Made by a program: the position numbers and the translations under genes
DNA from: Acidobacteriota bacterium
GTDB lineage: Bacteria; Acidobacteriota; Terriglobia; UBA7540
Direction of reading: 5' to 3'
Assembly: GCA_004298155.1 (NCBI GenBank)
Contig: SCRD01000018.1
Coordinates: 248,001-312,000, forward strand
DNA length: 64,000 nucleotides
In this document: one piece after another, positions 11,727-27,164 of the stretch
Layout of the letters: each line of letters opens with the position of its first letter
Position numbering within the stretch: the first letter of the stretch is position 1
The notes under the pieces: generated by a model
What the model saw: only the letters and a program-made list of their open reading frames with translations
Database searches by the model: none
What the model was told of the DNA's origin: nothing

Positions 11727-14189
11727 ATGAGTGACGAGTTGCAAGCAGGAGGTTTCGCGCAGCAGGAAGATCCGATGCAGGCCGGCGTGACGTTCAAAGA
11801 CCCCATTTGCGGCATGGACGTAGAGCCCGCGACCGCGGCGGGAAGCTATGAGTACCAGGGAACCACCTATTATTTCTGTTGCGAGCCGTGCCTGGAGAAA
11901 TTCCGGGCGTCGCCTGAAGAGTATATCGGCGCGACAAAGCGCGGGCCCAGGCCCGTTGATCCCATCCCCAGGGCCGACTACACCTGCCCGATGGATCCGG
12001 AGGTCCACCAGTCAAAACCTGGCGCGTGCCCCAAGTGCGGCATGGCGCTCGAGCCCGCCACAGTTGCACTACCGCAAACCAAAACGCAATACGTGTGCCC
12101 CATGCATCCCGAAGTCGTGCAGGATAGGCCGGGATCATGCCCCAAGTGCGGCATGGCCCTCGAGCCGCGCACAGTGACGCTCGAAGAGGAAGTCAACCCC
12201 GAATATGTTGATATGAAGCGCCGCTTCTGGATCAGCGTTGTCCTGACGGTCCCGCTGATGGCTCTCGACATGTCGCACATGATTTCGGGCCACGCGGCCG
12301 TTTCAGGCTCGATTGCGAACTGGATCCAGCTCGCCCTGGCCACGCCGGTAGTGCTCTATTGCGGCCTGCCGTTTTTCCAGCGCGGCTGGGCTTCCATTGT
12401 GAACCGCAGCCCCAACATGTTCACCCTGATCGCCATTGGCACCGGCACCGCGTACTTCTATAGCGCGATTGCGACCATCGCGCCGGGGATCTTTCCGGCA
12501 TCTTTTCGCGGCGCGGCCGGGACCGTGGCCGTCTACTTTGAAGCAGCCGCAGGCATCACCGCCCTGGTGCTGCTGGGGCAGGTGCTCGAATTGCGCGCCC
12601 GCAGCCATACTTCGAGCGCCATCAAGGCGCTGCTGGGGCTTGCTCCAAAAACTGCGCGGCGGATTCTGGACAACGGCACAGAAGAAGACGTTCCGCTCGA
12701 CCGCGTAAATCAAGGCGACCGCCTGCGCGTGCGCCCGGGAGAAAAGGTTCCAGTGGATGGCAAGGTGCTCGACGGATCAAGCTTTGTGGATGAGTCGATG
12801 ATCACCGGCGAGCCCACGCCCGTTGAAAAAACCGCGGGCGGGCGCGTCACCGGCGGAACCGTGAACGGGAAGGGGAGCCTTGTCATCCGCGCCGAGCGCG
12901 TGGGCAGCGAGATGCTGCTCGCGCAAATCGTGAAGATGGTAAGCGAGGCGCAGCGCAGCCGCGCGCCCATCCAGCGCCTGGCGGACGTGGTGGCTTCATA
13001 CTTTGTTCCCGCGGTGGTAGCGGCTGCCATTCTCACCTTCATTGTGTGGTCCATCGTGGGCCCCTCGCCGCGCATGGCCTACGCGCTGGTCAACGCGGTT
13101 GCGGTGCTCATCATCGCCTGCCCCTGCGCGCTGGGGCTGGCCACGCCCATGTCCATCATGGTGGGCACGGGCCGCGGCGCAATGGCGGGAGTGCTGATCA
13201 AAAACGCTGAAAGCCTCGAGGTGCTTGAGAAAGTTGACACCGTTGTGGTGGATAAGACCGGCACGCTGACGGAAGGAAAACCGCGGCTGGTATCGGTTGA
13301 GCCGATGGAAGGCTGGAACGAGCACGACCTGTTGCGGCTGGCCGCCAGCCTCGAGCGCGCAAGCGAGCATCCGCTCGCCGAAGCCATCGTGAGCGGCGCG
13401 CGCGAAAAAGGCGTGGAGCTCGCGGAAGGGCGCGATTTTGAATCCGTCACGGGCAAGGGTGTCACCGGCAAAGTGGACGGCCACAAAGTGGGCCTGGGCA
13501 ACAGCAGCCTGTTGGAGGAGCAGGGCGCGGACGCCGGCCTGTTCGAACAGCGCGCGGAAGCCCTGCGCAAAGATGGCCAGACGGTGATGTTTGTTGTGGT
13601 AGACGGAAAGCCCGCCGGCCTCCTCGGTGTGGCGGACCCGATCAAGGAATCGACGCCGGAAGCCATTCGGCTTCTGCACGATGAAGGAATCCGCATCGTG
13701 ATGCTGACCGGCGACAGCCGCACCACCGCCCAGACCGTGGCGAAGAAACTGGGCATCGATGAAGTGGAGGCGGAAGTCCTGCCGCAGCAGAAGGGCGAAG
13801 TGGTGAAGCGGCTGCAAAAGGAAGGGCGCATTGTTGCCATGGCCGGCGACGGCATCAATGACGCTCCGGCACTCGCTCAGGCGCAGGTAGGGATCGCCAT
13901 GGGCAGCGGCACCGACGTGGCTATTGAAAGCGCCGGCATCACGCTGCTGAAAGGCGACCTGCGTGGCATCGCCAGGGCCCGCCGCCTGAGCCGCGGCACC
14001 ATGCGCAACATCCGCCAGAACCTTTTCTTTGCGTTTGTCTACAACTCGCTTGGTATCCCGCTCGCCGCCGGAGTGCTCTATCCGTTTTTCGGATTGCTGC
14101 TCAGCCCGCTCGTGGCCAGCGCCGCCATGACGTTCAGCTCGGTTTCGGTGATTACCAACGCCCTGCGGCTGCGACGTTTGCCGTTGTAA
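11727..14189 (+). CDS. copA: Cu(I)-exporting P1B-type ATPase with YHS and two HMBD domains
   Basis: The 820-residue protein has, in order: a YHS domain (KDPICGMDV at about 24-32, FCCEPC at 50-55), two heavy-metal-binding repeats ([19 protein letters not shown] at 85-110 and [19 protein letters not shown] at 122-147), then a P1B ATPase core with eight membrane helices, [10 protein letters not shown] in TM6, the phosphorylation site DKTGTLT, HPLAEAI and [12 protein letters not shown]7 YN and TM8 MTFSSVSV residues match the P1B-1 Cu(I)-transporting class. It pumps copper out of the cytoplasm. The ATG at 11727 follows GGAGGG by eight bases; ATGs at 11673 and 11709 would add up to 18 residues. No dedicated regulator or chaperone is adjacent. 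Function is firm; physiological role (detoxification versus cuproenzyme loading) is open. Confidence 0.95.
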
Positions 14190-14210
14190 TCACATTGACA
14201 CGCCGCCCAC

Positions 14211-14291
14211 GTCATTCTGAGCGCAGCGAAGAATCCCCGCATTTTGGTGTTGGACTCAAATACAGAGATCCTTCGCTGCGCTCAGGATGAC
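14211..14291. repeat. Inverted repeat, family A (arms about 25 bases)
   Basis: The left arm (14211-14236) starts GTCATTCTGAGCGCAGCGAA; the right arm (14267-14291) is its near-exact reverse complement, ending GCTGCGCTCAGGATGAC. Degenerate copies of the same words are found at 24618-24684 and 42096-42180. Together the arms can form a long hairpin just after the copA stop. Confidence 0.8.
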
Positions 14292-14317
14292 GGGTGGGGA
14301 GTGCTGGTGCAAAAATC

Positions 14318-14357
14318 CGCATACATCGCAAACGGCGCGACGTATGCGCGGCCCGCG
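14318..14357. repeat. Hairpin repeat, family B, copy 1
   Basis: The element begins CGCATACATCGCA and returns as ACGTATGCG, giving a hairpin, followed by CGGCCCGCG. Related copies are at 15735-15772 and 16478-16517. Confidence 0.75.
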
Positions 14358-14467
14358 AGAAATTCAAGAGAGAATCTACAGGCTACGGGCTCTGACCTTT
14401 TGGAGCAGTTTCTTTATAGCCTTGCGGCCCAGACATCTGATCTCTTTGTCGTCCTGATAGCGGGTAG

Positions 14468-14492
14468 CGCAGAGTTGTTGTTCAACTCTGCG
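14468..14492. repeat. Perfect hairpin, family C, copy 1
   Basis: CGCAGAGTTG pairs perfectly with CAACTCTGCG across a five-base loop, preceded by GTAG. A second pair of arms (14589-14596 with 14615-14622, ending in GCGCTACC) lies about 100 bases on. The same design occurs at 18442-18468. Confidence 0.75.
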
Positions 14493-14750
14493 GTTTGCAA
14501 CCTTGAAACCATTATAAACTTAGGAACGACGTAATTTGACAATATAGTTGAAACGGGCTGAGAGGCGAATCATCTGGAGAAAAGAGCCGCAGAGTAATCC
14601 CAAACGGCGGGACAACTCTGCGCTACCCTGCTCAGGATGATAAAGTGGTAGCCACGGCCAGTGCTTTCCTGGCAGTGGGCATTTCGGAAGGCTGTTACGA
14701 CAGCTTAAGCTGTTGGCATTTCGTTTGAACACGTAGAGGAGGGGTGAATC

Positions 14751-15626
14751 ATGCTTCGACGGGTCATCCTGGTTTCTCTGTTTGTCATTTGTGCGGCACC
14801 TATTGCACGTTCAGCGCCGAAGCTCGATACGGCGAAGATTGATGCAGCGCTCGGCCGGAAAGGCTCCTCGACGGGAGGTCTTTACGTCGTCGATTTTTTC
14901 CGTCCTAACCTGACGGTAACGCTCGAGGGAGTGCGGCTAGCACCCGAAAGCGTCGATTCCTTCGTAACGTTCTTGCAGACCGGTGATCAGGCTGAAATGA
15001 TGGGCGAAGTTTGCGCCCTCCAGGGCGAAGTCACGGCAGCGGTGGGGAAGCTTCGAGCCGGAGGCGTTGAAATCACGGGCATCCACAATCATTTTCTCAG
15101 GGAGTCGCCGCGCCTTATGTTTATTCACTTCATGGCCCGCGGGCGAGCGGCAGACCTCGCGCGCACATTCCGGGCGGCGCTTGCAGTAACTTCCACGCCG
15201 CTCGCCGCAGTTCCGCCTGTCAGGCAGGTGACTGCGACGCCAGCCTGGGCCGGGACCGTAGGGAACGTATTGGGCTTTAAGGAGGACGCGCAGTATTCGT
15301 CAGATTACGGCGGCCTGACGGTCGGGGTCCCGCATGCCGGCTTCGCCCCGAGCCCAATGCTCAGCTACTGGTTCGTGAACTATATGTTCTTTCAAGAGGC
15401 GCCTGGAGGCAAGATCGCTGCAACAGGGGACCTGGCGACGACTTCGAGTGAACTCAACCCGGTACTGTCGGTCCTCACTGCGCAGGGGTTCCAGATTTTT
15501 GGTGTCCACAACCACATGATCGACGAGAATCCGCGCCTGTTCTTCGTTCACTTTTGGAAGATCGGCGCGCCCGCTGAGCTGGCACGCGGCCTGAAAGCAG
15601 CGCTGGCCGTCGTCCATACACAATAG
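14751..15626 (+). CDS. Secreted tandem DUF1259 (LppY/LpqO-like) protein
   Basis: After a signal peptide (VILVSLFVICAAPIARSA), the 291-residue protein has two homologous DUF1259 units of about 120 residues. Each carries a matching block: ITGIHNHFLRESPRLMFIHF in the first and IFGVHNHMIDENPRLFFVHF in the second, each followed by a short helix ending in a similar RAAL/KAAL motif. The family is known from mycobacterial lipoproteins LppY and LpqO; its function is unknown. The conserved HNH and IHF/VHF residues could bind metal or form an active site. GAGGAGGGG before the ATG supports the start. The next gene in the same direction, after a repeat, encodes another small secreted protein. Confidence 0.85.
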   Translation: MLRRVILVSLFVICAAPIARSAPKLDTAKIDAALGRKGSSTGGLYVVDFFRPNLTVTLEGVRLAPESVDSFVTFLQTGDQAEMMGEVCALQGEVTAAVGKLRAGGVEITGIHNHFLRESPRLMFIHFMARGRAADLARTFRAALAVTSTPLAAVPPVRQVTATPAWAGTVGNVLGFKEDAQYSSDYGGLTVGVPHAGFAPSPMLSYWFVNYMFFQEAPGGKIAATGDLATTSSELNPVLSVLTAQGFQIFGVHNHMIDENPRLFFVHFWKIGAPAELARGLKAALAVVHTQ

Positions 15627-15734
15627 TTGTGCTGGAATCCCACGGCTCATGACCTGGGCTAAAGTCTGCCGGCCCTCCGGGCCTTGAGAAAGGCAGAAGA
15701 CAGGAGGCAGGAGGCGGAAAGCCGCCGCAGCTCT

Positions 15735-15772
15735 CGCATACATCGCACACGCCGCGACGTATGCGCGACCCG
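15735..15772. repeat. Hairpin repeat, family B, copy 2
   Basis: Starts CGCATACATCGCACACG and closes with CGACGTATGCGCG. It sits about 110 bases after the DUF1259 stop. The same sequence logic as copies 1 and 3. Confidence 0.75.
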
Positions 15773-15919
15773 TCCGACGCAATCTTGCGACGGCCGGACA
15801 ATCCTTTGCATTTGCCTCGAACCGGATGTACACTGCCGGGCAGGCCAGGCTCTTTGGGGAGAGCCTATCTTCGGTAACCATCACAGGGCAAGAATCCAAA
15901 AATTGAGGGAGGGCGTAGC

Positions 15920-16381
15920 ATGAAGAGCACGCGAATTGGTCTGGTCATGGTAGGAGTGGTCTGTTTCCTTGGCGGCACGATGATCCCTTCGGGACGGTCG
16001 GCGCCTCCGGCACCGGTGGAACCACAGTTGATGAAATACCACATCGTGAATTGCATGAAAGTGAAGCCCGGCAAATACCAGCAGGCTATGCAGAATGAAA
16101 AGGATTGGAAGCGAATTGAGCAGGCATACAACGCGGCAGGCAAGAGGCGGGGCTGGGCCCTGTACGGCCATCAGTTCCCTGGATCAGACGACAGATGCGA
16201 CTATGTGACCGTGGATTCTTTTGAGAATTGGGGAGACCTCGAAGACCCGTACCCCGACCTTCCAAATATGTTCAAGAAAGTCTATCCCGACAAGAATTTT
16301 GACGAGTTCCTGCAACAGACGGATGACTCCCATCAAATAGTGCACAGGGATGTCTCGGTGCTGGTCGACCACGTGGAATAG
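15920..16381 (+). CDS. Small secreted protein of unknown function
   Basis: I do not recognise this 153-residue protein with certainty. It has a signal peptide (GLVMVGVVCFLGGTMIPSGRSA) and a mature part of about 125 residues with MKYHIVNCMKVKPGKYQQAM and later CDYVTVDSFENWGDL. This resembles dimeric alpha/beta-barrel (NIPSNAP/EthD-like) proteins, where a strand, helix and strand repeat forms a small-molecule pocket; this is only a visual similarity. GAGGGAGGG nine bases before the ATG supports the start. It lies downstream of the DUF1259 gene in the same direction, with repeat copies on both sides. Confidence 0.78.
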   Translation: MKSTRIGLVMVGVVCFLGGTMIPSGRSAPPAPVEPQLMKYHIVNCMKVKPGKYQQAMQNEKDWKRIEQAYNAAGKRRGWALYGHQFPGSDDRCDYVTVDSFENWGDLEDPYPDLPNMFKKVYPDKNFDEFLQQTDDSHQIVHRDVSVLVDHVE

Positions 16382-16477
16382 CGAGTGAATGCGCGAGCGC
16401 GCTCAAAGCAGTGGCAGGCCACGGCCGGATTAATTCCGTCCGTGGTTCGCCCATACCGCCCCATTACAAGACACAAC

Positions 16478-16517
16478 CGCACACATCGCAAAGGATGCGG
16501 CGGATGCGCGGCCCGCG
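16478..16517. repeat. Hairpin repeat, family B, copy 3 (diverged)
   Basis: Begins CGCACACATCGCAAAGG and ends GGATGCGCGGCCCGCG, a diverged copy of the family B element, located in the convergent gap before the TlpA gene. Confidence 0.65.
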
Positions 16518-16601
16518 CAACAGCAGGTTCCTCGCTGGGCCCGGAATAACAAGCGAATGGGCCCAGGATGATATGGGCGCCCATGCCACGGGCTGGGAGG
16601 T

Positions 16602-17138
16602 TTACCGTGACGCCTGGGTGTTGCCGGTGAGGGATTTCACAAACGTGATCATGCGGGGATCGGTCCAGTTGGTGGCGCCGATAATTTTTTCGGCCACGCG
16701 GCCGTCGCGATCGATGATGTAGGTTTCGGGAAGCTTGTAAGTGCCGTAGCGGTGGGTGAGCGAGTAGCGGGGGTCGCGGGCCACGGGATAGCTGACATGA
16801 TAGTACTGGACGAACTGGCTGAGCGCCTGCGCGTTTTCATCAACGCTCACGCCGATAACCGTGACGCCCTGGGATTTCATCTCGGTGGCGAACTGTTCGA
16901 GGCTGGGCGCTTCCATCACGCAGGGCGGGCACCAGGTGGCCCAGAAATTCAGCACTACCACCTGTCCCTTGAATTGCGAGAGCGACAACCGGCCAGACGG
17001 CAACTGCGGCAGCGTGAATCCGGGCGCGCGGTCGCCCAGTTTGACCGGCGCTCGCTGGCGCGGATGCAGCGCCAGCCACAGAACACCCACACCAGCGACG
17101 GCAACCACAATCCATTTGGCAATGGTGATTTTGCGCAT
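16602..17138 (-). CDS. Membrane-anchored ResA/TlpA-type thiol-disulfide oxidoreductase
   Basis: The 178-residue protein has an N-terminal membrane anchor (IAKWIVVAVAGVGVLWLAL), then a compact thioredoxin fold with WATWCPPC (Cys70 and Cys73) and the cis-proline in YKLPETYIIDRDG. This is the classical ResA/TlpA layout: a periplasmic domain that reduces cysteine pairs, for example in apocytochrome c. Length matches ResA. No cytochrome or ccm gene is adjacent. The start lacks a strong ribosome binding site. The divergent neighbour is a GT2 gene, and the short gap contains a palindromic repeat. Confidence 0.9.
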   Translation of the reverse strand: MRKITIAKWIVVAVAGVGVLWLALHPRQRAPVKLGDRAPGFTLPQLPSGRLSLSQFKGQVVVLNFWATWCPPCVMEAPSLEQFATEMKSQGVTVIGVSVDENAQALSQFVQYYHVSYPVARDPRYSLTHRYGTYKLPETYIIDRDGRVAEKIIGATNWTDPRMITFVKSLTGNTQASR

Positions 17139-17189
17139 ATTACAACCGTCTATTATAATCGCTTGGTTGTTTGAGGTGCACGTTTTGAT

Positions 17190-17237
17190 GTAGCGGCGGC
17201 TTTATGCCGCCATGTGGCGAGGTGAACTCGCCGCTAC
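17190..17237. repeat. Double-hairpin palindrome bounded by GTAGCGGCG / CGCCGCTAC
   Basis: Outer arms GTAGCGGCG and CGCCGCTAC enclose two inner hairpins: GGCGGC-TTTAT-GCCGCC and GGCGAG-GTGAA-CTCGCC. A shorter relative (GTAGCGGCGAG...CCGCTAC) occurs near 28719-28742. The element is in the divergent gap between the tlpA and GT2 genes. Confidence 0.7.
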
Positions 17238-17280
17238 GTCTCCCTGAACCACTGCCTATCAAGGAGTGAATTGCCGCAAC

Positions 17281-18330
17281 ATGCCTGAACGCGATGATGG
17301 CGCAGTGTCCGTCATCATTCCCGCCCGCAATGAAGAGGTGAACATTGAGCGCGTGGTGCGGTCCATCGCGCCCGAGCGGCGCCTGCGGGAGATGATTGTG
17401 GTGGACGACCAATCCACCGACCGCACGGCGGAAATCCTGGCCAGGCTCGAACGCGAGATTCCCTTGCTGCGCACGCTGCGGCTGGAGTCTCTTCCGGAAG
17501 GCTGGACCGGCAAGAGTCACGCCGCGGCGGCAGGCGCACAAATCGCCACCGGCGAGTGGCTGCTTTTTACCGACGCCGATACGGAACACCTGCCGGGCAG
17601 CCTGGAGGCGATGCTGGCGCGGGCCACGGAGGAAAACGCCGGACTGCTTTCCCTATCGCCGAGGCAGCAGACACCGACGTGGTGGGAAAAGGCAATCATC
17701 CCGTTTGTGTTTGTCCAACTGGCGCGGATTTTTCCTTTTGAAGAAGTTTCAGACCCTGCATCGCCAAGCGCCGCCGCGAATGGCCAATACCTGCTGGTGA
17801 GGCGAAGCGTTTACAATGAGATTGGCGGATTTGCGGCGGTGCGGGGCGAAATTCTTGATGACGTTGCGCTGGCAGGCCTGGTGAAGCAGCGCGGAGGCCG
17901 GCTGGTTTTTCTGCCGGGCGCGGAATGGGTGCGAACAAGGATGTACACGCGCTTCCGCGACATGTGGCAGGGCTGGAGCAAAAACCTCTATCTGCTCTAT
18001 GGCCGGAAACTCGGGCTGGTGCTCAAGGCCCTGAGCGAGGCGCTTATTCTGGATTTTTTGCTGCCGCTCGGTTTCCTGGTGCTGGCGGTACTGATCGCCG
18101 TGGGGCACGGCAGCGGCTGGGTGTTGATTGCACTCGTTCTGTGCTTTGTAGGCGCTGTTCTGCGAGAATGGAAATATGAGCGCAGCCTCACGCGACTGGG
18201 TTTTGACCCGCGGCTCGATATTTACCAGTTGGCGGGCGCCGGGTTGTTTGCTCTGCTCCTGCTGAATTCTGTGTGGGCACACACGGTGGCGGGCGGCATC
18301 CGGTGGAAGGGGCGGAAGTATCCGGCGTGA
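17281..18330 (+). CDS. GT2 glycosyltransferase with C-terminal membrane helices
   Basis: The protein (349 residues from this start) has a GT-A fold domain: VSVIIPARNEEVNIERVV, VVDDQSTDRTAE, the GEWLLFTDADTEH metal-binding DxD, and a later EILDDVALAGLVK acceptor motif, followed by QGWSKNL. The last third has three or four hydrophobic helices. The pattern GWTGKSHAAAAGA is like HpnB (hopanoid-associated) and CrtQ-type (carotenoid) glycosyltransferases, so a lipid acceptor is likely. The ATG at 17281 has AAGGAG 14 bases upstream, rather far; a GTG at 17266 overlaps that motif. No hopanoid or carotenoid genes lie nearby. Confidence 0.88.
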   Translation: MPERDDGAVSVIIPARNEEVNIERVVRSIAPERRLREMIVVDDQSTDRTAEILARLEREIPLLRTLRLESLPEGWTGKSHAAAAGAQIATGEWLLFTDADTEHLPGSLEAMLARATEENAGLLSLSPRQQTPTWWEKAIIPFVFVQLARIFPFEEVSDPASPSAAANGQYLLVRRSVYNEIGGFAAVRGEILDDVALAGLVKQRGGRLVFLPGAEWVRTRMYTRFRDMWQGWSKNLYLLYGRKLGLVLKALSEALILDFLLPLGFLVLAVLIAVGHGSGWVLIALVLCFVGAVLREWKYERSLTRLGFDPRLDIYQLAGAGLFALLLLNSVWAHTVAGGIRWKGRKYPA

Positions 18331-18393
18331 GGCGAAAAAAATGCCGAGATCCCATCGGTAAGCCCGGCGCACGCTCTTCGCGGAGCAGGTAGC

Positions 18394-18427
18394 GTGGGCC
18401 TCCGGTTTTGAGGCCCGCGGTTCTTTT
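18394..18427 (+). terminator. Candidate intrinsic terminator after the GT2 gene
   Basis: GTGGGCCTC pairs with GAGGCCCGC across CGGTTTT and is followed by GGTTCTTTT. It lies about 60 bases after the GT2 stop. Confidence 0.55.
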
Positions 18428-18441
18428 CGAATTGCAAAACC

Positions 18442-18468
18442 CGCAGACCGCAAAGACGGCGGTCTGCG
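18442..18468. repeat. Perfect hairpin, family C, copy 2
   Basis: CGCAGACCGC pairs perfectly with GCGGTCTGCG over a seven-base loop and is followed by CTACC, as in the 14.5-kb copy. It lies just upstream of the first pterin synthase gene. Confidence 0.75.
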
Positions 18469-18531
18469 CTACCGGCTTTGGCTCCTCGGAATGACGGGGG
18501 GACGAACCAGACGAGGGGGATGGAAAACAGA

Positions 18532-18939
18532 ATGATCTATCTGACCCGGCGCGCCGAATTTTCGGCTTCGCACTATTATCACAATCCGGATTTCAGCCCG
18601 GAAGAGAATCAGCGTATCTTCGGCAAGTGCAATAATCCGCACGGCCACGGGCATAATTATACCGTCGAGGTGACGGTGGCGGGCGAGGTGGATGCCACCA
18701 CCGGCATGGTCCTTGACCTCAAAGACCTGAAAGCCGTGCTTGAAACGGAAGTGATGCAGCGGATGGACCATAAGTTTCTGAACAAGGAAGTTCCGGCATT
18801 CGCAAGGTTGATTCCGACCACGGAGAACATCGCGGTGGAGATCTGGAACCTGCTGGCGGCGAAACTTCCGAGCGGCCGCCTGCATCGAATCCGCTTGTAT
18901 GAAACGGCGGACCTGTTTGTGGATTATTACGGGGACTGA
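18532..18939 (+). CDS. 6-pyruvoyltetrahydropterin synthase, first tandem copy
   Basis: The 135-residue protein is a full-length member of the PTPS/QueD T-fold family. Zinc ligands His14, His39 and His41, catalytic Cys33 and the Asp79-His80 pair, and the pterin-anchoring Glu124 (YETAD) are all present. The spacing C-x5-HGH (GKCNNPHGHGHNY) is that of true 6-pyruvoyltetrahydropterin synthase, rather than the C-x3-HGH of QueD. PTPS converts dihydroneopterin triphosphate to 6-pyruvoyltetrahydropterin, the precursor of biopterin. The ATG at 18532 gives the family start; in-frame ATGs at 18478 and 18520 are alternatives. Its TGA overlaps the next gene's ATG (TGATG), and that gene overlaps folE, so three pterin genes are coupled. 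Confidence 0.92.
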   Translation: MIYLTRRAEFSASHYYHNPDFSPEENQRIFGKCNNPHGHGHNYTVEVTVAGEVDATTGMVLDLKDLKAVLETEVMQRMDHKFLNKEVPAFARLIPTTENIAVEIWNLLAAKLPSGRLHRIRLYETADLFVDYYGD

Positions 18940-19394
18940 TGGTTTCACTGACCAGGCGTTACCGATTTTCAGCATCGCACCGTCTGCATAATGAAGCGCT
19001 GAGCGCGGAAGAGAACAGCCGTGTGTTCGGCAAGTGCAACAGCCCTTACGGCCACGGGCACAACTACATTGTGGAGGTCACCGTGCGCGGGCCGGTTGAT
19101 GCGGCCACGGGAATGGTGATGGACCTGGGGATGCTGGACCAGGCTGTCGAAAAGGAAGTGCTGGACCGCTTTGACCATACCTACCTGAACCTGGACGTCC
19201 CCAATTTTCAGGGAAAAGTGCCGACCACGGAAAACCTTTGCGTCGAGATTTACAACCTGCTCTGCGCAAAGCTCGACGGCGGAAAGGGAGGCGCGCAGCT
19301 TGAGAAAGTGCGCCTGGAAGAGACGAGCTCAAATTCCTTCGAGTACTCGGGCACGGCGGCTGGCGCGGAATTGACCCATAGAGAGAGAAAATGA
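18939..19394 (+). CDS. 6-pyruvoyltetrahydropterin synthase, second tandem copy
   Basis: This 151-residue paralogue aligns with the first copy from residue 1 with no gap through residue 110. It keeps His14, Cys33, His39, His41, Asp79-His80 and a C-terminal glutamate (RLEETSS), with the same C-x5-HGH spacing ([13 protein letters not shown]). It differs by a 16-residue C-terminal tail. Both copies therefore look catalytically intact rather than one being a decayed duplicate. PTPS enzymes are homohexamers, and a mixed hexamer or two distinct pterin substrates are possible. Start and stop both overlap the neighbours (TGATG with the first copy; ATGA with folE). Confidence 0.92.
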
Positions 19395-19999
19395 AGACAA
19401 ACGATAAATCAACAGTAGCGGAACCAGAGCAATTGGACCAACTGGACCCTCTGGAAGAAGCAATGCGCCGCGCGCTACGCGAACTGGGAGAAGATCCCGA
19501 CCGCGAAGGGCTGAAGGAGACGCCGCAGCGCGTGGCAAAGTCGCTGAGGTTCCTCACCAGCGGCTATCGCCAGGACGTGAAGAAGGTGCTGAACGGGGCT
19601 GTCTATTCCGTCGCCTATGACCAGATGGTGATCGTGAAAGATATCGAAATCTTCAGCCTGTGCGAGCACCACATGCTGCCGTTCTTCGGCCGCTGCCACG
19701 TAGCCTATGTCCCCACGGAGAAAGTAATCGGGCTGAGCAAGATCCCCCGGCTGGTGGACGTTTTCGCGCGCCGATTGCAGATCCAGGAGCGGCTCACCAC
19801 CGAGATTGCCGAGACCATCATGGAGACCATCAAGCCGCAGGGAGTGGGCGTTATTATCGAAGCCAAACACCTTTGCATGATTATGCGCGGCGTTGAAAAG
19901 CAGAATTCCGTCGCGGTGACGTCGTCCATGCTGGGCATCTTCCGCGATTGCGATCAGACACGCTCGGAATTCCTGCGGCTGGTGAAGCAGCGGAGCTAG
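19391..19999 (+). CDS. folE: GTP cyclohydrolase I
   Basis: The 202-residue protein has the GTP cyclohydrolase I signature: zinc ligands Cys91 and His94 in [18 protein letters not shown], a third ligand Cys162 in [10 protein letters not shown], and a conserved VGLSK-like IGLSKIPR. It makes 7,8-dihydroneopterin triphosphate from GTP, the first step of both folate and tetrahydrobiopterin synthesis. Length and motifs are normal. Coupling by a four-base ATGA overlap to two PTPS genes puts it in a biopterin rather than folate setting; no folB, folK or folP is nearby. Confidence 0.95.
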
Positions 20000-20140
20000 G
20001 AAGCAGAAAATAGGAAGTTGCGAGTAGGAAATAGGGGCTAGGGAACGGACCCTCACCCGCGCCGACGAAGTTGGGGACTGTCAGGTTTCCGTTTTCCTAC
20101 TTCAGGTTTACTACTCCCTACTTCCTGTTTTTTTCTACTT
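19998..20140. repeat. Imperfect inverted repeat of GGAAGTAGG-type words
   Basis: Between folE and the reductase gene, purine-rich words (AGGAAGCAG, AGGAAGTTGCGAGTAGGAAA) are mirrored by pyrimidine-rich words on the same strand (TTTTCCTACTTC, ACTCCCTACTTCCTG). They could fold into a long imperfect hairpin. It probably separates the two transcripts or belongs to another repeat family. Confidence 0.45.
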
Positions 20141-20184
20141 GCTCGGCCTCTACAGTTCGACGGAACCAGAGAACCCGGCTTTTC

Positions 20185-20895
20185 ATGCACACGTTAAAAA
20201 ACAGGGTAGCTGTTGTGACCGGAGCCAGCCGCGGCATCGGCCTGGCGATTGCGCAGGCTCTCGATCGCGAGGGCGCGGAAGTGGTGCTGGTGGCGCGCAA
20301 CAGGAAGGCGCTGGAATCCGCCCGGAAAACGCTGGGGGCGGGCGCGAGCGTTGTAGCGGCGGACGTCGGGCAGCCTGCTGACGTCGGTCGTGTTTTCCGG
20401 CAGGTGAAGAAGCAGCATGGCCGGCTCGATATCCTGGTGAATTGTGCGGGTATTTTTACATACAAGCCGTTCGTTAAAACTACGCTTGAAGATTGGCATC
20501 ACAACATCGGAACCAACCTCACCTCGCTTTTCCTGACTGCCAAGGCAGCCCTTCCACTGTGGGAAGGCAGCCGTCATGCGCACCTTGTGAATATCCTTTC
20601 CACTTCAAGCCGGCAGGCATTTACGAACTGCTCGGCCTATACGGCGGCAAAGTTCGGGGCGCTGGGGCTGACGCGGGTGCTCAGGAAAGAATTGCAGCCG
20701 AAGGGCATCCGAGTTACGGCCATTCTTCCGGGCCTGACGGACACGGAGATGCTGAAGGAATTTGGATTTGACGTTCCACGCGGCAAACTGATGCAGCCCG
20801 AAGATGTTGCGGCGGCGGTGATTTCTGCCCTTCAGCAGCCGGCACGGACGGCCGTGCATGAGGTGCTGCTGATGCCCGCGGCGGGTGCAATATAG
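20185..20895 (+). CDS. Short-chain dehydrogenase/reductase, possible pterin side-chain reductase
   Basis: The 236-residue protein is a classical SDR: TGASRGIG nucleotide-binding loop at 12-19, NCAG at about 86-89, and a catalytic Ser near 141-142 with Tyr152 and Lys156 (YTAAK). Family members are NADP-dependent reductases of many carbonyl substrates; 3-oxoacyl reductases and sepiapterin reductase both belong here. It lies 185 bases after folE in the same direction, so a role as the sepiapterin reductase that would complete a BH4 pathway is possible. The sequence alone does not prove this. ATG at 20185 is preferred to upstream frame extension from 20071 because the family begins just before the TGASRGIG strand. 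Confidence 0.88.
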   Translation: MHTLKNRVAVVTGASRGIGLAIAQALDREGAEVVLVARNRKALESARKTLGAGASVVAADVGQPADVGRVFRQVKKQHGRLDILVNCAGIFTYKPFVKTTLEDWHHNIGTNLTSLFLTAKAALPLWEGSRHAHLVNILSTSSRQAFTNCSAYTAAKFGALGLTRVLRKELQPKGIRVTAILPGLTDTEMLKEFGFDVPRGKLMQPEDVAAAVISALQQPARTAVHEVLLMPAAGAI

Positions 20896-20983
20896 GGAGT
20901 ATCGTCTAGCAGCCTGCACGCTACGTTGCGCCGGGCCGCGTGCCGGGAGCTCTGTGACGCAGGAACACCTGGCGGCCAAACTT

Positions 20984-21013
20984 TTGCCAAATGGGTGAAA
21001 ACAATGCTATGCT
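20984..21013 (+). promoter_or_regulatory. Candidate promoter of rpsO
   Basis: TTGCCA at 20984-20989 and TATGCT at 21008-21013 are separated by 18 bases, about 50 bases upstream of the rpsO start. Confidence 0.6.
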
Positions 21014-21062
21014 ATCCCATGAAAATGTGGGAGAAATAGTCGGAAACGAGGAGAATTAGCGG

Positions 21063-21332
21063 ATGGCGTTAACCCGTGATTCAAAGTCGCAAGTTATTTC
21101 AAAATACAAGGTCCATGCTTCGGATACGGGTTCGCCTGAGGTGCAGGTTGCTCTTTTGACCGAGCGCATCTCTTACCTGACGGAGCACTTTCGCGCACAC
21201 CGGAAAGATCACGCTTCAAGACGGGGCCTGCTGACGATGGTCAGCAAACGGAAGCGGCTGCTTGATTATCTGAGACGGCACAATGCCGATCGTTACAAGC
21301 AGGTGATCGATCGGTTAGGGATCCGCAAATAA
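21063..21332 (+). CDS. rpsO: 30S ribosomal protein S15
   Basis: The 89-residue product is a standard S15: [19 protein letters not shown] and [25 protein letters not shown] are the family blocks that contact 16S rRNA helices 20-22. GAGGAG about nine bases before the ATG supports the start. The rpsO-pnp order is conserved across bacteria, and in E. coli S15 represses its own translation; no such site could be assessed here. A terminator follows it before pnp. Confidence 0.98.
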
Positions 21333-21386
21333 GCGGCTGTGAAGGAAAGCGAGAAGACACTGGGTCAAACCGCCCCTTCTGGATCG

Positions 21387-21424
21387 AGCGACCCCCGGCA
21401 GGAGTGCCAAGGGTCGCTTTTTGT
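21387..21424 (+). terminator. Terminator between rpsO and pnp
   Basis: AGCGACCC pairs with GGGTCGCT, with an inner CGGCA/TGCC stem, followed by TTTTTG. It lies about 55 bases after rpsO. In many bacteria a leaky terminator or an RNase III stem sits at this spot. Confidence 0.75.
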
Positions 21425-21625
21425 TTAGTGGGGCGTCTGGGTGTCTTGAGTTGGTCCGTTCGTTAATTGCAGTACCCACCTCGGTCCGTGGTTCCCACGC
21501 CAAAATGACAAGGCTTTCTGAGGTCCCTGCCGCGAATGGCTGGCGCCGGAAGTGAATCCGGAGCGTTCTCACGGCACAAAGTGGAGGGGGGGCAGGCGAG
21601 CCGGCAAAATTCGGAGGTTAAATTA

Positions 21626-23728
21626 ATGGAGCAAGTCAGTATTCAACTGGGAGGAAGTACCCTATCAATTGAGGTCGGCAAGCTGGCCAAGCAGGCGAAC
21701 GGCTCGGCCTTTGTGCGTTACGGCGACACGGTTGTGCTGGCAACGGCATGTTCAACCAAACCGCGTGAAGGAATCGATTTCTTTCCGCTCACAGTCGACT
21801 ATCGCGAGTATACCTACGCAGCAGGGAAGATCCCCGGCGGTTTTTTCAAACGTGAAGGACGCCCTACGGAAAAGGAAATTCTCAGCAGCCGGCTGATTGA
21901 CCGTCCGGTGCGGCCCATGTTTCCCGAGGGGTTCAAGGACGAGACCCAGGTGATCGCCATGGTGCTTTCGGCAGACACCGACAACAACCCGGACGTCATC
22001 GGCCTGGTGGCCGGAGCGGCGGCCCTTTACCTTTCAGATATTCCGTTTCCAACGCCGGTGGCGGCGGTGCGTGTGGGCCTGGTGGAAGGCCACCTGGTTA
22101 CCAATCCGACTTATACAGAAGTAAAGGCAAGCATTTTGAACATGGTGGTTGCAGGCAGCGAGGACGCCATCGTGATGGTAGAAGCCGGGGCCACCGAGGT
22201 TTCCGAGGAAACCATCAATGACGCCATCCAGTACGCGCACGGGGAAATCAAAAAGATCGTGGCGGTTGAAAAAGAGCTGTTCGCGAAACTGGGAATCAGC
22301 AAGAAGCATTTTGTGGCCGCTGAATTCGACAAAGCCATCGAAGCCGAGGTCCGGCAGAAAGTGGAGGCGAACCTCCGCGAGGCCATGAATACCTCGAAGT
22401 ACCCCAAGCTCGAAAGCCAGAGCAAGATTTCCGGACTCAGGGAAGCGCTGGTGGCGAGTTATCCGGAGACTGACGAGGAAAAGCGCCGGAAAGCGGGCGA
22501 AGCCTTCGACCGGCTGGAAGAGCGTGTCTTTCGCGAGGATACTCTGCTGAAACGCCAGCGTCCTGACCGGCGGGCTTTTGACCAGGTCCGGACGATCACC
22601 TGCGAAGTGGGACTGCTGCCGCGCACCCACGGCTCCGCGCTGTTCACGCGCGGCGAGACGCAGGCCCTGGTGACGGCAACGCTTGGCACCGCAGAAGACC
22701 AGCAGCGCCTGGATGTGCTGGAAGGCGAGTCGTTCAAGCGCTTCATGCTGCACTACAATTTCCCGCCCTTCAGCGTGGGCGAAGTGGGGTTCCTGCGCGG
22801 GCCCGGACGGCGCGAAGTGGGGCACGGCGCGCTGGCCGAACGCGCTCTTGCCAGAGTTATTCCGGATGAAGCGGCCTTCCCCTACACCGTCCGCGTGGTT
22901 TCCGACATTCTCGAATCCAACGGATCGTCATCGATGGCGAGCGTTTGCGGAGGCTGCCTCGCCCTGATGGACGCCGGAGTTCCCATCAAATCGCCCGTGG
23001 CCGGAATCGCCATGGGACTGGTAAAGGAAGGCGACAAATACGCCATCCTCACCGACATTGCCGGCGCCGAGGACCATTACGGCGACATGGACTTCAAAGT
23101 GGCCGGAACCAAGGACGGCATCACGGCGCTCCAGATGGACATTAAGGTGACCGGCATCACGCCCGCGATCATGGCGGAAGCCCTGGCACAGGCAAAGGCC
23201 GCGCGCCTGCATATCCTGGAGAAAATGGTGGCAACAATTCCCGAGCCTCGCACCAAGATTTCCGCATACGCCCCGCACATCCACACCATCCACATCAACC
23301 CGGCCAAGATCGGCGAGTTGATCGGGCCTGGCGGCAAGGTGATCCGCGGAATCGTGGAGCAGACCGGCGCCAAGATCGACGTGGAGAACGATGGACGCGT
23401 CAACGTGGCGGCCGTTGATGAAACCTCCGCCAGCAAGGCCCTCAAGATCATCAGGGACATGATGGCCGAGGCCGAACTCGGCAAGACCTACCTTGGCAAA
23501 GTGGTCCGGCTGGCTGATTTCGGCGCCTTTGTCGAAATCTTCTCCGGCACCGACGGCCTGCTGCACATCAGCGAGGTAGCCGAACATCGCATTCGCGATA
23601 TTCGGGAAGAATTGAAGGAAGGCGACCAGTTGCTGGTGAAAGTGATTTCGATTGACGGCAACAAGATCCGTCTTTCACGCAAGGCTGTCCTGCGCGAGCA
23701 GCGCCAGAAGACGGGGAAAGAAAACTAA
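21626..23728 (+). CDS. pnp: Polyribonucleotide nucleotidyltransferase
   Basis: The 700-residue protein shows the PNPase layout: first RNase PH domain (FVRYGDTVVLATAC, GGFFKREGRPTEKE), a helical linker, second RNase PH domain (PFSVGEVGFLRGPGRREVGHG, and the catalytic-site DIAGAEDHYGDMDFKVAGT), a KH domain (IGPGGKVIRGI) and an S1 domain ending LRLSRKAVL-like. It degrades mRNA 3' to 5' by phosphorolysis. GGAGG eight bases before the ATG at 21626 decides the start; the longer frame from 21536 is not needed. Length matches the family. Confidence 0.97.
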   Translation: MEQVSIQLGGSTLSIEVGKLAKQANGSAFVRYGDTVVLATACSTKPREGIDFFPLTVDYREYTYAAGKIPGGFFKREGRPTEKEILSSRLIDRPVRPMFPEGFKDETQVIAMVLSADTDNNPDVIGLVAGAAALYLSDIPFPTPVAAVRVGLVEGHLVTNPTYTEVKASILNMVVAGSEDAIVMVEAGATEVSEETINDAIQYAHGEIKKIVAVEKELFAKLGISKKHFVAAEFDKAIEAEVRQKVEANLREAMNTSKYPKLESQSKISGLREALVASYPETDEEKRRKAGEAFDRLEERVFREDTLLKRQRPDRRAFDQVRTITCEVGLLPRTHGSALFTRGETQALVTATLGTAEDQQRLDVLEGESFKRFMLHYNFPPFSVGEVGFLRGPGRREVGHGALAERALARVIPDEAAFPYTVRVVSDILESNGSSSMASVCGGCLALMDAGVPIKSPVAGIAMGLVKEGDKYAILTDIAGAEDHYGDMDFKVAGTKDGITALQMDIKVTGITPAIMAEALAQAKAARLHILEKMVATIPEPRTKISAYAPHIHTIHINPAKIGELIGPGGKVIRGIVEQTGAKIDVENDGRVNVAAVDETSASKALKIIRDMMAEAELGKTYLGKVVRLADFGAFVEIFSGTDGLLHISEVAEHRIRDIREELKEGDQLLVKVISIDGNKIRLSRKAVLREQRQKTGKEN

Positions 23729-23794
23729 AAACTGGAGGGGCCTGTAGAACTCTGACGGGTGATATCAGGTTCCTTGGATTGCATTTCACGACCG

Positions 23795-23839
23795 CTGCCG
23801 GCGAGAGGATAAGTCCTTCGCGCCGGCAGTTTCTTTTTT
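23795..23839 (+). terminator. Intrinsic terminator of pnp
   Basis: CTGCCGGCG pairs exactly with CGCCGGCAG and is followed by TTTCTTTTTT. It lies about 65 bases after the pnp stop. Confidence 0.9.
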
Positions 23840-24179
23840 ACAGCGCTGATGTCTGCTGCGCTGCCTGTATGTTTGGGGTCTCGTTTCTGCAAATCGATGA
23901 TCGGGAACATTCAGAGCACGTTGTGCGTATTCATTTGTGTGAGTTTGTTCTGTATCCTCTGTGCAAGGAGAAGAGCAAAAGGCGGAGAACACGGAGCCTG
24001 TCTGCCCTCTGTGTTAAGTTTTTGACGGCACAGAGATATCGTGCGGGCCTGGCGCTGCATGGAAATGCAGGCTTCCTTGCCCTCACTGGCGCCGAATGAG
24101 TGCGAGCTTTTCTACTCGCTTGACACTCTTTCGCGGGTTTCATAGCATAAAAGTTGGCGGGCTTATAAATTCAGAAATC
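23840..24179. other. Gap between pnp terminator and STAS gene
   Basis: A 106-codon frame crosses this stretch but has poor composition and no family motif. Words like CCTCTGTG recur in both orientations and may be a decayed repeat. The promoter of the STAS gene should be here, but no clear element was seen. Confidence 0.4.
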
Positions 24180-24533
24180 ATGGATATAAGAGTCGATTCT
24201 CGCAATGACGTAACAATTGTGCGGCTGCAAGGAAAGTTCCTGGCTGACCGCGACGGCCCGCTTTGCCGCGACAAAATGAATGAATTGATCCAGTCGGGAA
24301 GGCGGAAGTTTCTCTTTGATTTTTCCGGCGTGCCCTACATTGATTCGACGGGGCTGGGATTTCTTGCCGGGTGCCGTGCCGCGGCCCAGAGAGCCGGAGC
24401 GGGGCTGGTGCTGGCATCGCTCGACGAACGCGTCAGGCGCGTGCTCGACGAGGTGAAGCTTTCCGAATATTTCCTGATTGCTGAAGATGAAGCACACGGC
24501 ATCGCGCGGCTGGACGAAATTTCACAGAGTTGA
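24180..24533 (+). CDS. STAS-domain anti-sigma factor antagonist
   Basis: The 117-residue protein is a single STAS domain: VTIVRLQGKFLADRDGP at the N-terminal strand and VPYIDSTGLGFLAGCRAA, with the phosphorylatable serine at about residue 56, near the centre. Such proteins (SpoIIAA/RsbV type) free a sigma factor or act in partner-switching when unphosphorylated. No anti-sigma kinase or phosphatase is adjacent, so the partner is unknown. The ATG at 24180 matches the family start; a longer frame from 24096 adds 28 atypical residues. A ribosome binding site is not evident for either. Confidence 0.85.
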   Translation: MDIRVDSRNDVTIVRLQGKFLADRDGPLCRDKMNELIQSGRRKFLFDFSGVPYIDSTGLGFLAGCRAAAQRAGAGLVLASLDERVRRVLDEVKLSEYFLIAEDEAHGIARLDEISQS

Positions 24534-24876
24534 CCGGGGTCTCCTGCCGAAATCTTCCTGACGACTCCATCTGCCATTTCATCCTGATCCCGTTCGCCCT
24601 CCGCTTGCGAACTGCCGTGATCCTTCGCTTTGCTCAGGATGACAGACGAAGGGGCCCGGAATGACACGAAGGGCTCAGGATGACTTGGCACGCGGAATTT
24701 CCAACGGCCAGTAAAATCCTTACATAGGCCCCTGCCAGTTAGATTTGTTACCGCATCCTCGCAACAGGCTAATCTTTTTTCTCCATTCAGCCGATTTTCT
24801 ATACTGCATTAGAGAAAAAGGGTCTGAAACTTTGGGACCACTTGACCAGAGGAGCGGAGGTTGACTGTACTGACCC
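24534..24876. other. Repeat-bearing gap between STAS and PilZ genes
   Basis: No gene. The left half carries degenerate family A repeat words (see 24618-24684). The right half is relatively AT-rich and may hold the promoter of the PilZ gene (TATACTG near 24798), without a clear -35. Confidence 0.4.
24618..24684. repeat. Degenerate family A repeat cluster
   Basis: Several partial copies in both orientations: TGATCCTTCGCTTTGCTCAG, GGAATGACACGAAGGG and GGCTCAGGATGAC. These match the arms of the inverted repeat at 14211-14291. Confidence 0.6.
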
Positions 24877-25677
24877 ATGCCGGAAGAGCAGAAACGACGG
24901 ACAGATCGTGTACTGGCGCCCGTTCGCATTCGAGTAATCGGAAATGACGTTTCCGGAGTATCGTTTAGTGAAGAGACCATAACCGTCAGCTTCAGCCCGG
25001 GCGGGGCCCGCATCAGCCTTACCCATCCTCTTCTGCCGGACGACATCATTCTCATCAAGAACCTCGCGAATGACATCGAAGAAGAGTTCCGCGTTGTGGG
25101 GGCTTTCCAGCAGGTTTTTGGCGACCGCCGCGAGTGGGGAGTCGAGGCGCTGAACCCGGAGAGCGGAATCTGGGGTATCGACTATACGCCGCCGAGGGAA
25201 GGCCTGCAGCCCAAAGTGCTGATTGAGTGCGCGGCATGCAGGAACGCAATTCAAAGTCCGCTTTCAACCATCGAGTATGACGTGCTTCTGGCTACCGGGC
25301 TGATTTCCCGCCATTGTGAACGCTGCAAGGAAACCACCCGGTGGAAACCAAGCGACCAGCCCCTTACCTCTGAAATCATCCAGCAGAGCCACAGCCAGGG
25401 ACCGCCATTGACAGAGCGGCGAAAATCAAGGCGGCTGCAACTTGTCATGCGGCTCATGGTCCGCAACAGCTGGGGCGTAACGGACATTGCTCAAACCCGT
25501 AACGTCTCAAAAGGCGGGCTATGTTTTGTGAGCGCCAAAGTCTTTAACGTAGGAGACGAACTCTTCATCACGCTGCCCTTTGCCTACAACCAGGCCCCGG
25601 TCGAGACCCCCGCGCGAGTCGTGTGGACGCAGTTGACGGAATCAGGACGCCAATACGGCGTCTGCTACCTGAAATAG
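24877..25677 (+). CDS. PilZ protein: two PilZ-like domains flanking a CxxC zinc ribbon
   Basis: The 266-residue protein has an N-terminal PilZ-like half (R7-x3-R11, then SFSPGGARI at 39-46, where the usual D/N is Ser), a middle segment with Cys118, Cys121, Cys147 and Cys150 as two CxxC pairs 25 residues apart, and a C-terminal PilZ domain with R181-x3-R185 and the intact NVSKGG (N209-x-S211-x2-G214) motif. PilZ domains bind cyclic di-GMP. The C-terminal domain should bind it; the N-terminal one is degenerate. The cysteine pairs suggest a structural zinc ribbon. No signal peptide or membrane segment, so it is cytoplasmic. Neighbours (STAS protein, secreted protein) give no direct partner. Confidence 0.85.
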   Translation: MPEEQKRRTDRVLAPVRIRVIGNDVSGVSFSEETITVSFSPGGARISLTHPLLPDDIILIKNLANDIEEEFRVVGAFQQVFGDRREWGVEALNPESGIWGIDYTPPREGLQPKVLIECAACRNAIQSPLSTIEYDVLLATGLISRHCERCKETTRWKPSDQPLTSEIIQQSHSQGPPLTERRKSRRLQLVMRLMVRNSWGVTDIAQTRNVSKGGLCFVSAKVFNVGDELFITLPFAYNQAPVETPARVVWTQLTESGRQYGVCYLK

Positions 25678-25937
25678 GCCGCCGACTGTACTCCTCATCC
25701 CGGGTGGAACGGTCGTAGGCGCGCCCGTGACGAAATTTCAAGCCGCCTCCACAGGTAACTCTGTGGCCTTACGGGTGCTTTGACTATTGCGCTCACCCTG
25801 TTGATTCTTGCGCCCTTAACTCTTTAAGTGGGCTTTTTGCTGGACGTGTGCCCTATAATGCTGGAGCGGCGCCACCAGCCCAGCAAGCAGGAACTGAGGG
25901 CTGTGAGCGGGAATCGGACCCGGCGAGGGATCGGTCA

Positions 25938-27164
25938 ATGATGAAAATGCGCCTGAGACGTATTGTGACGATGGGGCTGTGCCTTGTGTCGTTATGCTGC
26001 CTGGGGGCGCGCCTCACGCTTGCCCAGGTAAACGCACGCCTCGTGCTGGTGAGCGGCTCGGCGGTTCCCGGCCATCCCGGCTTCACCTTCGGCCCGTTTT
26101 ACGATCTGTCGATGAACGAAAACGACCAGATTGTTTTTCGCACCACGCTGGAAAGCCCCCGCAACACCGTGCGGGCCGTGGTGAGGTCAATGGGAGTTTC
26201 GTTTTCAGTGGTGGCATTCGAGGGGTTGGTTTCTCCCGCGTCGCACGAGCAATATGAATCATTCAGTGCGCCCTGCATTAATGACGCTGGCATGGTGGCC
26301 TTCAAAGCGGTTTTGAAGGGCGGCGGAGACGCGCCGACAGAGGCCATCGTTCGGGTGAATGGCTCAAGTGAAGACCTGGTTGCTTCTAACGCCAGTGGTG
26401 GAAAGAGTTTTGGCGCCGGCTTCAAGGCATTTTCAGCCCCGGTCATCGGGTCGAGCGGGGCGGTCCTGTTTGCGGCTCGAACGGGGGGCTCGAACCCGCA
26501 ATCGGGCCTCTTCCTCTGGTCGGGGGGAGGAATCCGCCAGGTGGAGCTGCCCAAAGATTTTCAGCTTGGTCCCCGCGAGGTTCTGGAACCGCTCTTTGCC
26601 AGCCGTGACGAGGCCGTTTTTGTGCGACACGGCGTGGATATGGCGGCGGCGCGCGAGCAGTTTTTCCGGGCCATTGCCGTGCGGAATTTCCAGCAACTGG
26701 ACCCACCCCCGAAGCCTTCCGACACGGTCCAGGTGCTCCCGGGGCGCTCGAACCAGAAGCCAGTGCAACTGCTGCTGGTCCTCTTGCAGGGAAACAATGT
26801 TCAGACGGCGGAACTGGCCGGTGCGCCCTCACAGCCGGTGAAGGCGCAGATCGCTTCCGGAGGGGGCCCGGCAAGCGACTCCGCGTTTGATGCCATCCAG
26901 GGCCAGGCGGCAGGCAGGCAGGCGGGCAGCATTATCTTTGCTGGCGTCCCGTCCGGCCAGGCGGATGGTTTCGGCATCTTTTGTTTCTGTGGCGGGCAGG
27001 TGGTGCGCTTGACCACGCAGGCGGACTTTGGACTCCTTATCGGCAACCTGAACGGGAAAACAATCGGGTCTTTTGCGGGTGACGGCCAGGGAACAGTAGC
27101 GCTGGTCGCTCCGGTCGGAAATCAGCAAGGCTCGAACGCCATCTTTGTGTGTGACACCCCGTGA
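25938..27164 (+). CDS. Secreted beta-repeat protein (NxxGxxxF-type repeats)
   Basis: The product (408 residues from this start) has a signal peptide (IVTMGLCLVSLCCLGARLTLA) and then repeating units of about 60 residues with the form N-x-x-G/D-x-[IV]-x-F: MNENDQIVFRTTL, INDAGMVAFKAVL and GSSGAVLFAAR. This resembles the tandem-repeat surface proteins called choice-of-anchor NxxGxxxF proteins in Acidobacteria and Planctomycetes, of unknown function. The ATG at 25938 has GAGGG eight bases upstream and starts the signal peptide; the longer frame from 25848 adds unlikely residues. No C-terminal anchor is obvious. Confidence 0.75.
   Translation: MMKMRLRRIVTMGLCLVSLCCLGARLTLAQVNARLVLVSGSAVPGHPGFTFGPFYDLSMNENDQIVFRTTLESPRNTVRAVVRSMGVSFSVVAFEGLVSPASHEQYESFSAPCINDAGMVAFKAVLKGGGDAPTEAIVRVNGSSEDLVASNASGGKSFGAGFKAFSAPVIGSSGAVLFAARTGGSNPQSGLFLWSGGGIRQVELPKDFQLGPREVLEPLFASRDEAVFVRHGVDMAAAREQFFRAIAVRNFQQLDPPPKPSDTVQVLPGRSNQKPVQLLLVLLQGNNVQTAELAGAPSQPVKAQIASGGGPASDSAFDAIQGQAAGRQAGSIIFAGVPSGQADGFGIFCFCGGQVVRLTTQADFGLLIGNLNGKTIGSFAGDGQGTVALVAPVGNQQGSNAIFVCDTP

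Follow-up and report, generated by a model that had tools for sequence, protein, structure and literature searches.

Reciprocal loss of catalytic residues in tandem genes of Acidobacteriota suggests a heteromeric 6-pyruvoyltetrahydropterin synthase

Why does a bacterium keep two overlapping genes for 6-pyruvoyltetrahydropterin synthase (PTPS) side by side? The question is raised by a stretch of 64,000 nucleotides (the window in the following) from an Acidobacteriota bacterium of the Terriglobia (assembly GCA_004298155.1, contig SCRD01000018.1, positions 248,001 to 312,000), whose genome of 5.2 Mb is 97.6% complete and is called G000 here, with the window on its contig C18. On the forward strand of the window the upstream paralogue PTPS-A (135 amino acids, 18532..18939) and the downstream paralogue PTPS-B (151 amino acids, 18939..19394) were both recognised by Pfam and PDB matches, and A also by an AlphaFold2 model. 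The TGA stop codon of A ends at 18939, where the ATG of B opens, so that the two genes overlap by one base. B in turn overlaps by four bases with folE, encoding GTP cyclohydrolase I (202 amino acids, 19391..19999, forward strand; TIGR00063 251.9 bits, cut-off 181.6). Behind folE lies a gene for a short-chain dehydrogenase/reductase (SDR; 236 amino acids, 20185..20895, forward strand; PF00106 183.8 bits), an optional part of the module. All four open reading frames (ORFs) are intact. The initial annotation, which had described this layout and both overlaps correctly, took the pair for two active enzymes of a full biopterin pathway and mentioned mixed hexamers in passing. Our analysis takes up the latter: A and B are very probably different subunits of one hetero-oligomeric PTPS, most simply of an A3B3 hexamer.

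Both chains clearly belong to the PTPS family. They scored 127.7 (A) and 121.4 bits (B) against the Pfam family PF01242 (cut-off 22.4), and the best PDB match of both was the PTPS chain 1b66 (1.7e-43 and 5.5e-34, respectively), which we take to be rat PTPS. Identity to the 1b66 segment is 53% for A and 51% for B, and QueD chains followed in this search at 4.5e-10 and weaker. The curated cut-off of NCBIfam TIGR00039 (125.5 bits) was missed by A with 101.2 and by B with 96.4 bits, as was that of the QueD family TIGR03367 (89.25; 76.0 and 74.9 bits). The model of A, calculated with 27 sequences (predicted local distance difference test, pLDDT, 92.1), had human PTPS 3i2b as its best structural match in the PDB (Z 21.0, 1.9 Å, 135 residues). 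PMC5041015 (section 7) assigns the motif CxxxxxHGH to PTPS-II, C-x3-HGH to QueD (PTPS-I) and ExxHGH to PTPS-III. C-x5-HGH is present in both window copies, ending in NPHGHGH in A and in SPYGHGH in B, and both CxxxHGH and ExxHGH are absent from them. Each copy keeps three zinc-binding histidines, the cysteine, the Asp-His pair and both glutamates, exactly as initially claimed.

A tree was calculated for 101 proteins, comprising 38 of the 123 tandem pairs, 14 PTPS present as single copies, two from animals and 9 QueD types, and leaving out the contig-end fragments L180-L183. The QueD types stood apart in it, with a support of 94 in the Shimodaira-Hasegawa-like approximate likelihood ratio test (SH-aLRT), and A, B, the single-copy and the animal PTPS stood on the opposite side. 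All A chains formed one clade (88), all B chains another (92), and both were sisters (89). Together with the identity of 57-58% between the window copies this indicates that A and B derive from one old tandem duplication of an animal-type PTPS. The strong queC match of G000 is found on contig C1, where it does not cluster with the window, and a QueD-like copy on contig C6; queE and queF were not searched. Motif, tree and these separate genes bear out the statement that the pair encodes true PTPS and not QueD, and the proposed phylogenetic check against animal and QueD references came out in its favour.

The pair is no peculiarity of this genome. We collected 92 loci, consisting of 80 loci from a genome collection (the best-ranking among 532 confirmed relatives, with a bias to close ones), the window and 11 relatives from the class; the sample was then extended to 123 (from 148 pairs) and finally to 152 distinct pairs. 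The nearest named matching loci come from metagenome-assembled genomes of Acidobacteria and Terriglobia. A preceded B in 80/80 collection loci. Of 61 related genomes, 46 carry A and B on the same contig, as read from the coordinates, and the pair also occurs in three genomes of family f25 outside the class. In two further genomes (G031, G035) PTPS pieces were found at contig ends. Two side-by-side copies are thus normal in this group and not unusual, as had been assumed. The coupling to folE is equally stable, with folE following B in 84 of the 85 loci offering room for it. One contig labelled as Betaproteobacteria (L071, BOG_genome_mining.134) carries an Acidobacteriota-type tandem; this genome is probably mislabelled.

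The decisive evidence comes from the catalytic residues, numbered here after P0001 (Cys33, His14/39/41, Asp79-His80, Glu98 and Glu124), presumably the rat numbers minus 9 (Cys42, His23/48/50, Asp88-His89, Glu107 and Glu133). His39 and His41 were kept in 92/92 A and 92/92 B chains of the first sample, and all three zinc histidines in both chains of all 152 pairs. The catalytic cysteine was present in 152/152 B chains and in 115/152 A chains, being lost in 37. The Asp-His pair showed the opposite picture, being present in 152/152 A chains and in 84/152 B chains (66 altered; L150 and L295 unreadable). Hence a composite of Cys from B and Asp-His from A is intact in 152/152 pairs, the reverse composite of Cys from A and Asp-His from B in 66/152, and in 18/152 pairs neither single chain has the full triad. 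On a tree of 150 pairs calculated without these columns (L150 and L295 excluded; L266, a repeat of L140, had been excluded before) at least 5 changes are needed for the cysteine of A and 24 for the Asp-His of B, but 0 for the cysteine of B and the Asp-His of A. The state in which neither chain is complete requires a minimum of 8 changes. Already in G001, belonging to the genus of the window (L146), Gly-His has replaced Asp-His in B. In the window pair no residue is lost from either chain.

This pattern gains its meaning from the architecture of the enzyme. In PTPS the zinc histidines and Cys42 come from one subunit and Asp88-His89 from another, near the contact of the two trimers, and the animal enzyme works as a homohexamer encoded by one gene. 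PMC7546909 describes two head-to-head trimers with each site between three adjacent monomers, and the title of Burgisser 1995, listed among the references of PMC2229834 and PMC7546909, names an 'intersubunit catalytic triad motif'. The reciprocal decay of the triad, combined with a triad spanning subunits, suggests an A/B heterohexamer. After the ancient tandem duplication, B would have kept the pocket with zinc and cysteine and A the donated Asp-His. The working site would then be the pocket of B with Cys33, completed by Asp79-His80 of A and fed with 7,8-dihydroneopterin triphosphate by the folE product; it would release 6-pyruvoyltetrahydropterin or a close relative, reaction and product being deduced, and the own pocket of A may be dead or altered in many lineages. 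One A trimer facing one B trimer would give three complete sites per hexamer in each of the 152 loci. We infer the physical assembly of A and B, the stoichiometry, the reaction and the product from the sequences, and for the window pair itself the heteromer would follow from its relatives.

Could A be the actual enzyme, and B a subunit that has partly degenerated to a regulatory or structural role? This would fit the faster evolution of B (identity among B copies 59%, among A copies 69%), the loss of Asp-His from 66 of 150 readable B chains and the full triad of A alone in 115/152 pairs. However, A lacks the cysteine in 37/152 pairs (at least 5 changes), among them each of the 32 sampled from family f5, whereas B never lacks it, and every zinc histidine is kept in B. 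As B evolves faster overall, its invariant cysteine is not due to a general relaxation of B. We therefore regard this explanation as very unlikely. Both chains are under purifying selection, with a median ratio of nonsynonymous to synonymous substitution rates (dN/dS) of 0.05 for A and 0.09 for B (simple Nei-Gojobori estimates, NG86, with often high dS). Where the Asp-His of B is lost, the ratio is 0.06-0.16 (18 comparisons, one of them with the unreadable L150).

Equally improbable, in our view, is that A and B each form a homohexameric enzyme of their own and make two different pterins, which had been offered as a second option. The two complete chains in the window speak for it, and so do the fixed or nearly fixed differences between A and B at positions 15, 16, 67 and 128. 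The pocket-side residues R15 (151/152), L16 (152/152) and N128 (148/149 readable) are kept in B, in rat, in C. elegans and in all 14 single-copy PTPS, and are changed in A; position 67 is Lys in 152/152 A chains and Asp in 151/151 readable B chains, and might, as a guess, lie at the contact of A and B. Two homohexamers are, however, hard to reconcile with the 18 pairs lacking a complete triad in either chain and with strictly reciprocal losses that are seen again in family f42. If the triad lay within one chain, these 18 tandem loci and three f42 genomes would be without a working enzyme even though the genes are kept.

Family f42 comprises three genomes outside the class (G108, G146, G221), each of which possesses two unlinked PTPS copies. 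One copy (L198-L200) keeps Cys33 and the zinc histidines, but His80 is replaced by Arg or Cys. Its partner (L304, L305, L306) keeps Asp-His but lacks Cys33 and Glu124, and the zinc ligand His39 is replaced by Tyr. In 3/3 genomes a complete triad is thus seen across the two chains but in neither of them alone. The pocket chains were first filed as single-copy PTPS with an altered His80 and would have opposed a split site until their partners were found. In a tree with the f42 partner (38 of 123 pairs, three QueD rows dropped) the partner grouped with the B clade (93) on a long branch of 0.97, and the pocket chain carries Lys67 and the partner Asp67. The roles thus seem to be reversed in f42, with a B-like chain giving Asp-His and the other chain giving the pocket, while the pairing of K67 with D67 is kept. 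Two of these genomes contain a further, shorter PTPS (L303 in G221, L307 in G146) with EPVHGH and without the cysteine, corresponding to the ExxHGH signature of PTPS-III; no folB match was found in either genome.

Several points weigh against the heteromeric enzyme. Both window chains are complete, so homohexamers are possible for this organism, and in the 115/152 pairs in which A alone has the full triad it could act alone. The reversal in f42 limits the rule that B always keeps the pocket to the 152 tandem pairs. The clades rest on about 139 columns with moderate support, and the B clade absorbed the f42 partner once this was added. Furthermore, animal PTPS is a homohexamer. Nevertheless, the reciprocal loss of catalytic residues across A/B pairs backs the earlier aside on mixed hexamers. 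The claim of two active copies would be compatible with the window, where both chains are complete, but probably fails for the family overall: in many relatives no more than one composite site can be complete.

It is conceivable, although we are doubtful, that the heterohexamer is obligate, that the split arose at least 2 times with opposite polarity, and that the second pocket was recruited for another reaction, giving two pterins or consecutive steps. Recruitment is suggested by the zinc ligands of A, kept in 152/152 pairs, and by the loss of Cys33 in f5 combined with a cysteine at position 16. The f5 loci fetched were the best 30 of the 60 f5 matches listed, scored against an f5 A chain. 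All 32 sampled A chains of this family (L134, L138, L140, L267-L295) lack Cys33, and 15 of the B chains keep Asp-His. In the same 32/32 A chains position 16, two residues past a zinc histidine, is Cys, compared to Tyr in 119 and Leu in 1 of the other 120 A chains. The altered A pocket of f5 may have a new role.

Which pathway is served by the site? A complete pathway to tetrahydrobiopterin, in which the SDR acts as sepiapterin reductase and a hydroxylase is served, would be compatible with the heterohexamer as it concerns the product. It would agree with the C-x5-HGH motif, the coupling to FolE, the downstream SDR and a gene resembling pterin-4a-carbinolamine dehydratase (PCD) in G000. The PCD gene, however, is present in 54/61 genomes regardless, and the SDR, searched within about 1 kb after folE, was detected in 42 of the 82 loci with room and undetected in 40. 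Among 676 PDB matches of the SDR, sepiapterin reductase 2bd0 was second with 118.1 bits, between 2ehd (122.5) and a third match (116.7), and many other SDRs lay within a few bits. The SDR does follow folE, as annotated, and a sepiapterin-reductase-like step is possible for it, but its match to sepiapterin reductase is no better than that to several other SDRs. The check for phenylalanine hydroxylase was negative: no aromatic amino acid hydroxylase (PF00351) was found in G000 at 97.6% completeness, and PF00351 occurs in 4/46 tandem genomes, one of these being a 62-residue fragment match. Of the claimed biopterin pathway the PTPS type and the folE coupling stand, whereas no hydroxylase was found in G000 and the SDR was detected in about half of the loci. 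We consider the complete pathway possible but rather doubtful. The SDR, generic by its score, could reduce 6-pyruvoyltetrahydropterin, and the chances of a biopterin-like final product appear roughly even.

A pterin glycoside is another possible product; such compounds occur in some cyanobacteria and Chlorobi. It might be made via the gene directly upstream, whose link to the module is putative and which encodes a family 2 glycosyltransferase (GT2; 17266..18330, forward strand), described in the family scan as HpnB/CruG-like below both cut-offs. This gene is a conserved neighbour, lying directly in front of A in 78/92 loci as counted from gene strings.

Alternatively the A/B pair might replace the missing dihydroneopterin aldolase FolB in folate synthesis. 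No folB was found in G000; the gene is absent from 46/46 tandem genomes and present in 6/15 others, and folK occurs in 57/61. Moreover, four genomes (G018, G025, G042, G056; 91-99% complete) show only the two tandem copies and no folB. The correlation, perfect at first (0/46 with folB), is also explained by the motif of a third PTPS copy, which in G000 lies on contig C6 (L001, 126691-127050) and carries CENVHGH. According to PMC5041015, CExxHGH is the signature of PTPS-I/III hybrids, said to serve both pathways. All 30 such copies among the best-scoring matches (L001, L089-L117) have the glutamate, with Cys replaced by Ser once, and copies from class genomes without the pair (L124-L132) lack the CExxHGH glutamate. 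We hand-picked 39 further genomes from the listed matches and examined one PTPS copy in each: 18 had CE and all were without folB, 12 had folB and none of them CE, and 9 had neither. In 11 of the 18 CE genomes there was no other PTPS match among the matches listed, i.e. folB is also missing where there is no pair. In addition, A and B lack the ExxHGH needed by PTPS-III, and PTPS with C-x5-HGH coexists with folB in G067 and G209. A replacement of FolB by the pair is accordingly unlikely. What is left of the idea are the four genomes named above, whose assemblies may lack contigs; in G018, for example, a strong queC was found but no third copy.

Since the loss of folB follows the CExxHGH motif, also in genomes without the pair, folate is probably the task of the third copy. 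Queuosine is best given to it too, on account of the strong queC match on contig C1 of G000 and of the many relatives whose coordinates place the third copy on the contig of queC, no more than a few kb away from it. The third copy of G012 (L107) reads SENTHGH, the cysteine being lost and the glutamate kept, and no strong QueC match was among those listed for this genome (86% complete). This is what would be expected if its third copy serves folate only, and L107 resembles a PTPS-III of QueD ancestry that is dedicated to folate. Four genomes (G044, G052 and G059 of family f9, and G050) have folK, and no folB, tandem PTPS or CExxHGH copy was found in them; in G050 (88% complete) there was no PTPS match at all.

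With regard to expression, the best start of the SDR is the ATG at 20185, 185 bp past folE, without translational coupling. A sigma-70 scan of 18000-21200 yielded no site ahead of PTPS-A, an Rfam scan of 10000-26000 yielded no family at gathering score, and 6 terminator-like sites were counted in 18000-21200 compared to 4.3 expected. The gap before PTPS-A contains a perfect 10-bp inverted repeat with a 7-nt loop (18442-18468), which occurs once in the window; the two palindromic stretches in this gap are single copies within the window. Beyond the GT2 gene a TlpA/ResA-like gene lies on the opposite strand. Two proteins encoded at 14751-15626 and 15920-16381 begin, judged by eye, with sequences resembling signal peptides, and neither matched an NCBIfam family at 1e-5. 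A CopA-like heavy-metal P-type ATPase (11673-14189) is encoded about 4 kb upstream, and its ORF cluster is present in the fetched stretch of 42/92 loci.

Literature searches covering titles and abstract openings, with subscription papers outside their scope, turned up no description of a PTPS built from different subunits, nor of PTPS genes in tandem in Acidobacteria. If the proposed assembly is right, a family known as homohexameric would have a heteromeric member. The evolution of a dependent complex would be visible as reciprocal active-site loss across a bacterial class, apparently repeated with swapped roles, and the view of such copies as two active enzymes or extra QueDs would be corrected. 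It also raises the question which pterin is made by soil Acidobacteriota without a known pterin-dependent hydroxylase.

Compared to known systems, the window copies have the same zinc histidines, Cys, Asp-His and Glu as the animal enzymes (1b66/1gtq, human 3i2b). The animal PTPS is encoded by one gene and forms a homohexamer, whereas here two diverged genes are present and their relatives show reciprocal loss of half of the triad. QueD (PTPS-I) and the PTPS-I/III hybrid share fold and zinc site with A and B but carry C-x3-HGH or CExxHGH instead of C-x5-HGH, and are represented in G000 by the third copy on contig C6. Bacterial PTPS-II of the biopterin type (COG0720) has the same CxxxxxHGH motif as A and B, according to PMC5041015. 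In Synechococcus, as described there, one PTPS-II exists beside a PTPS-I, whereas in the locus described here two genes of PTPS-II type overlap each other and the second one also overlaps folE.

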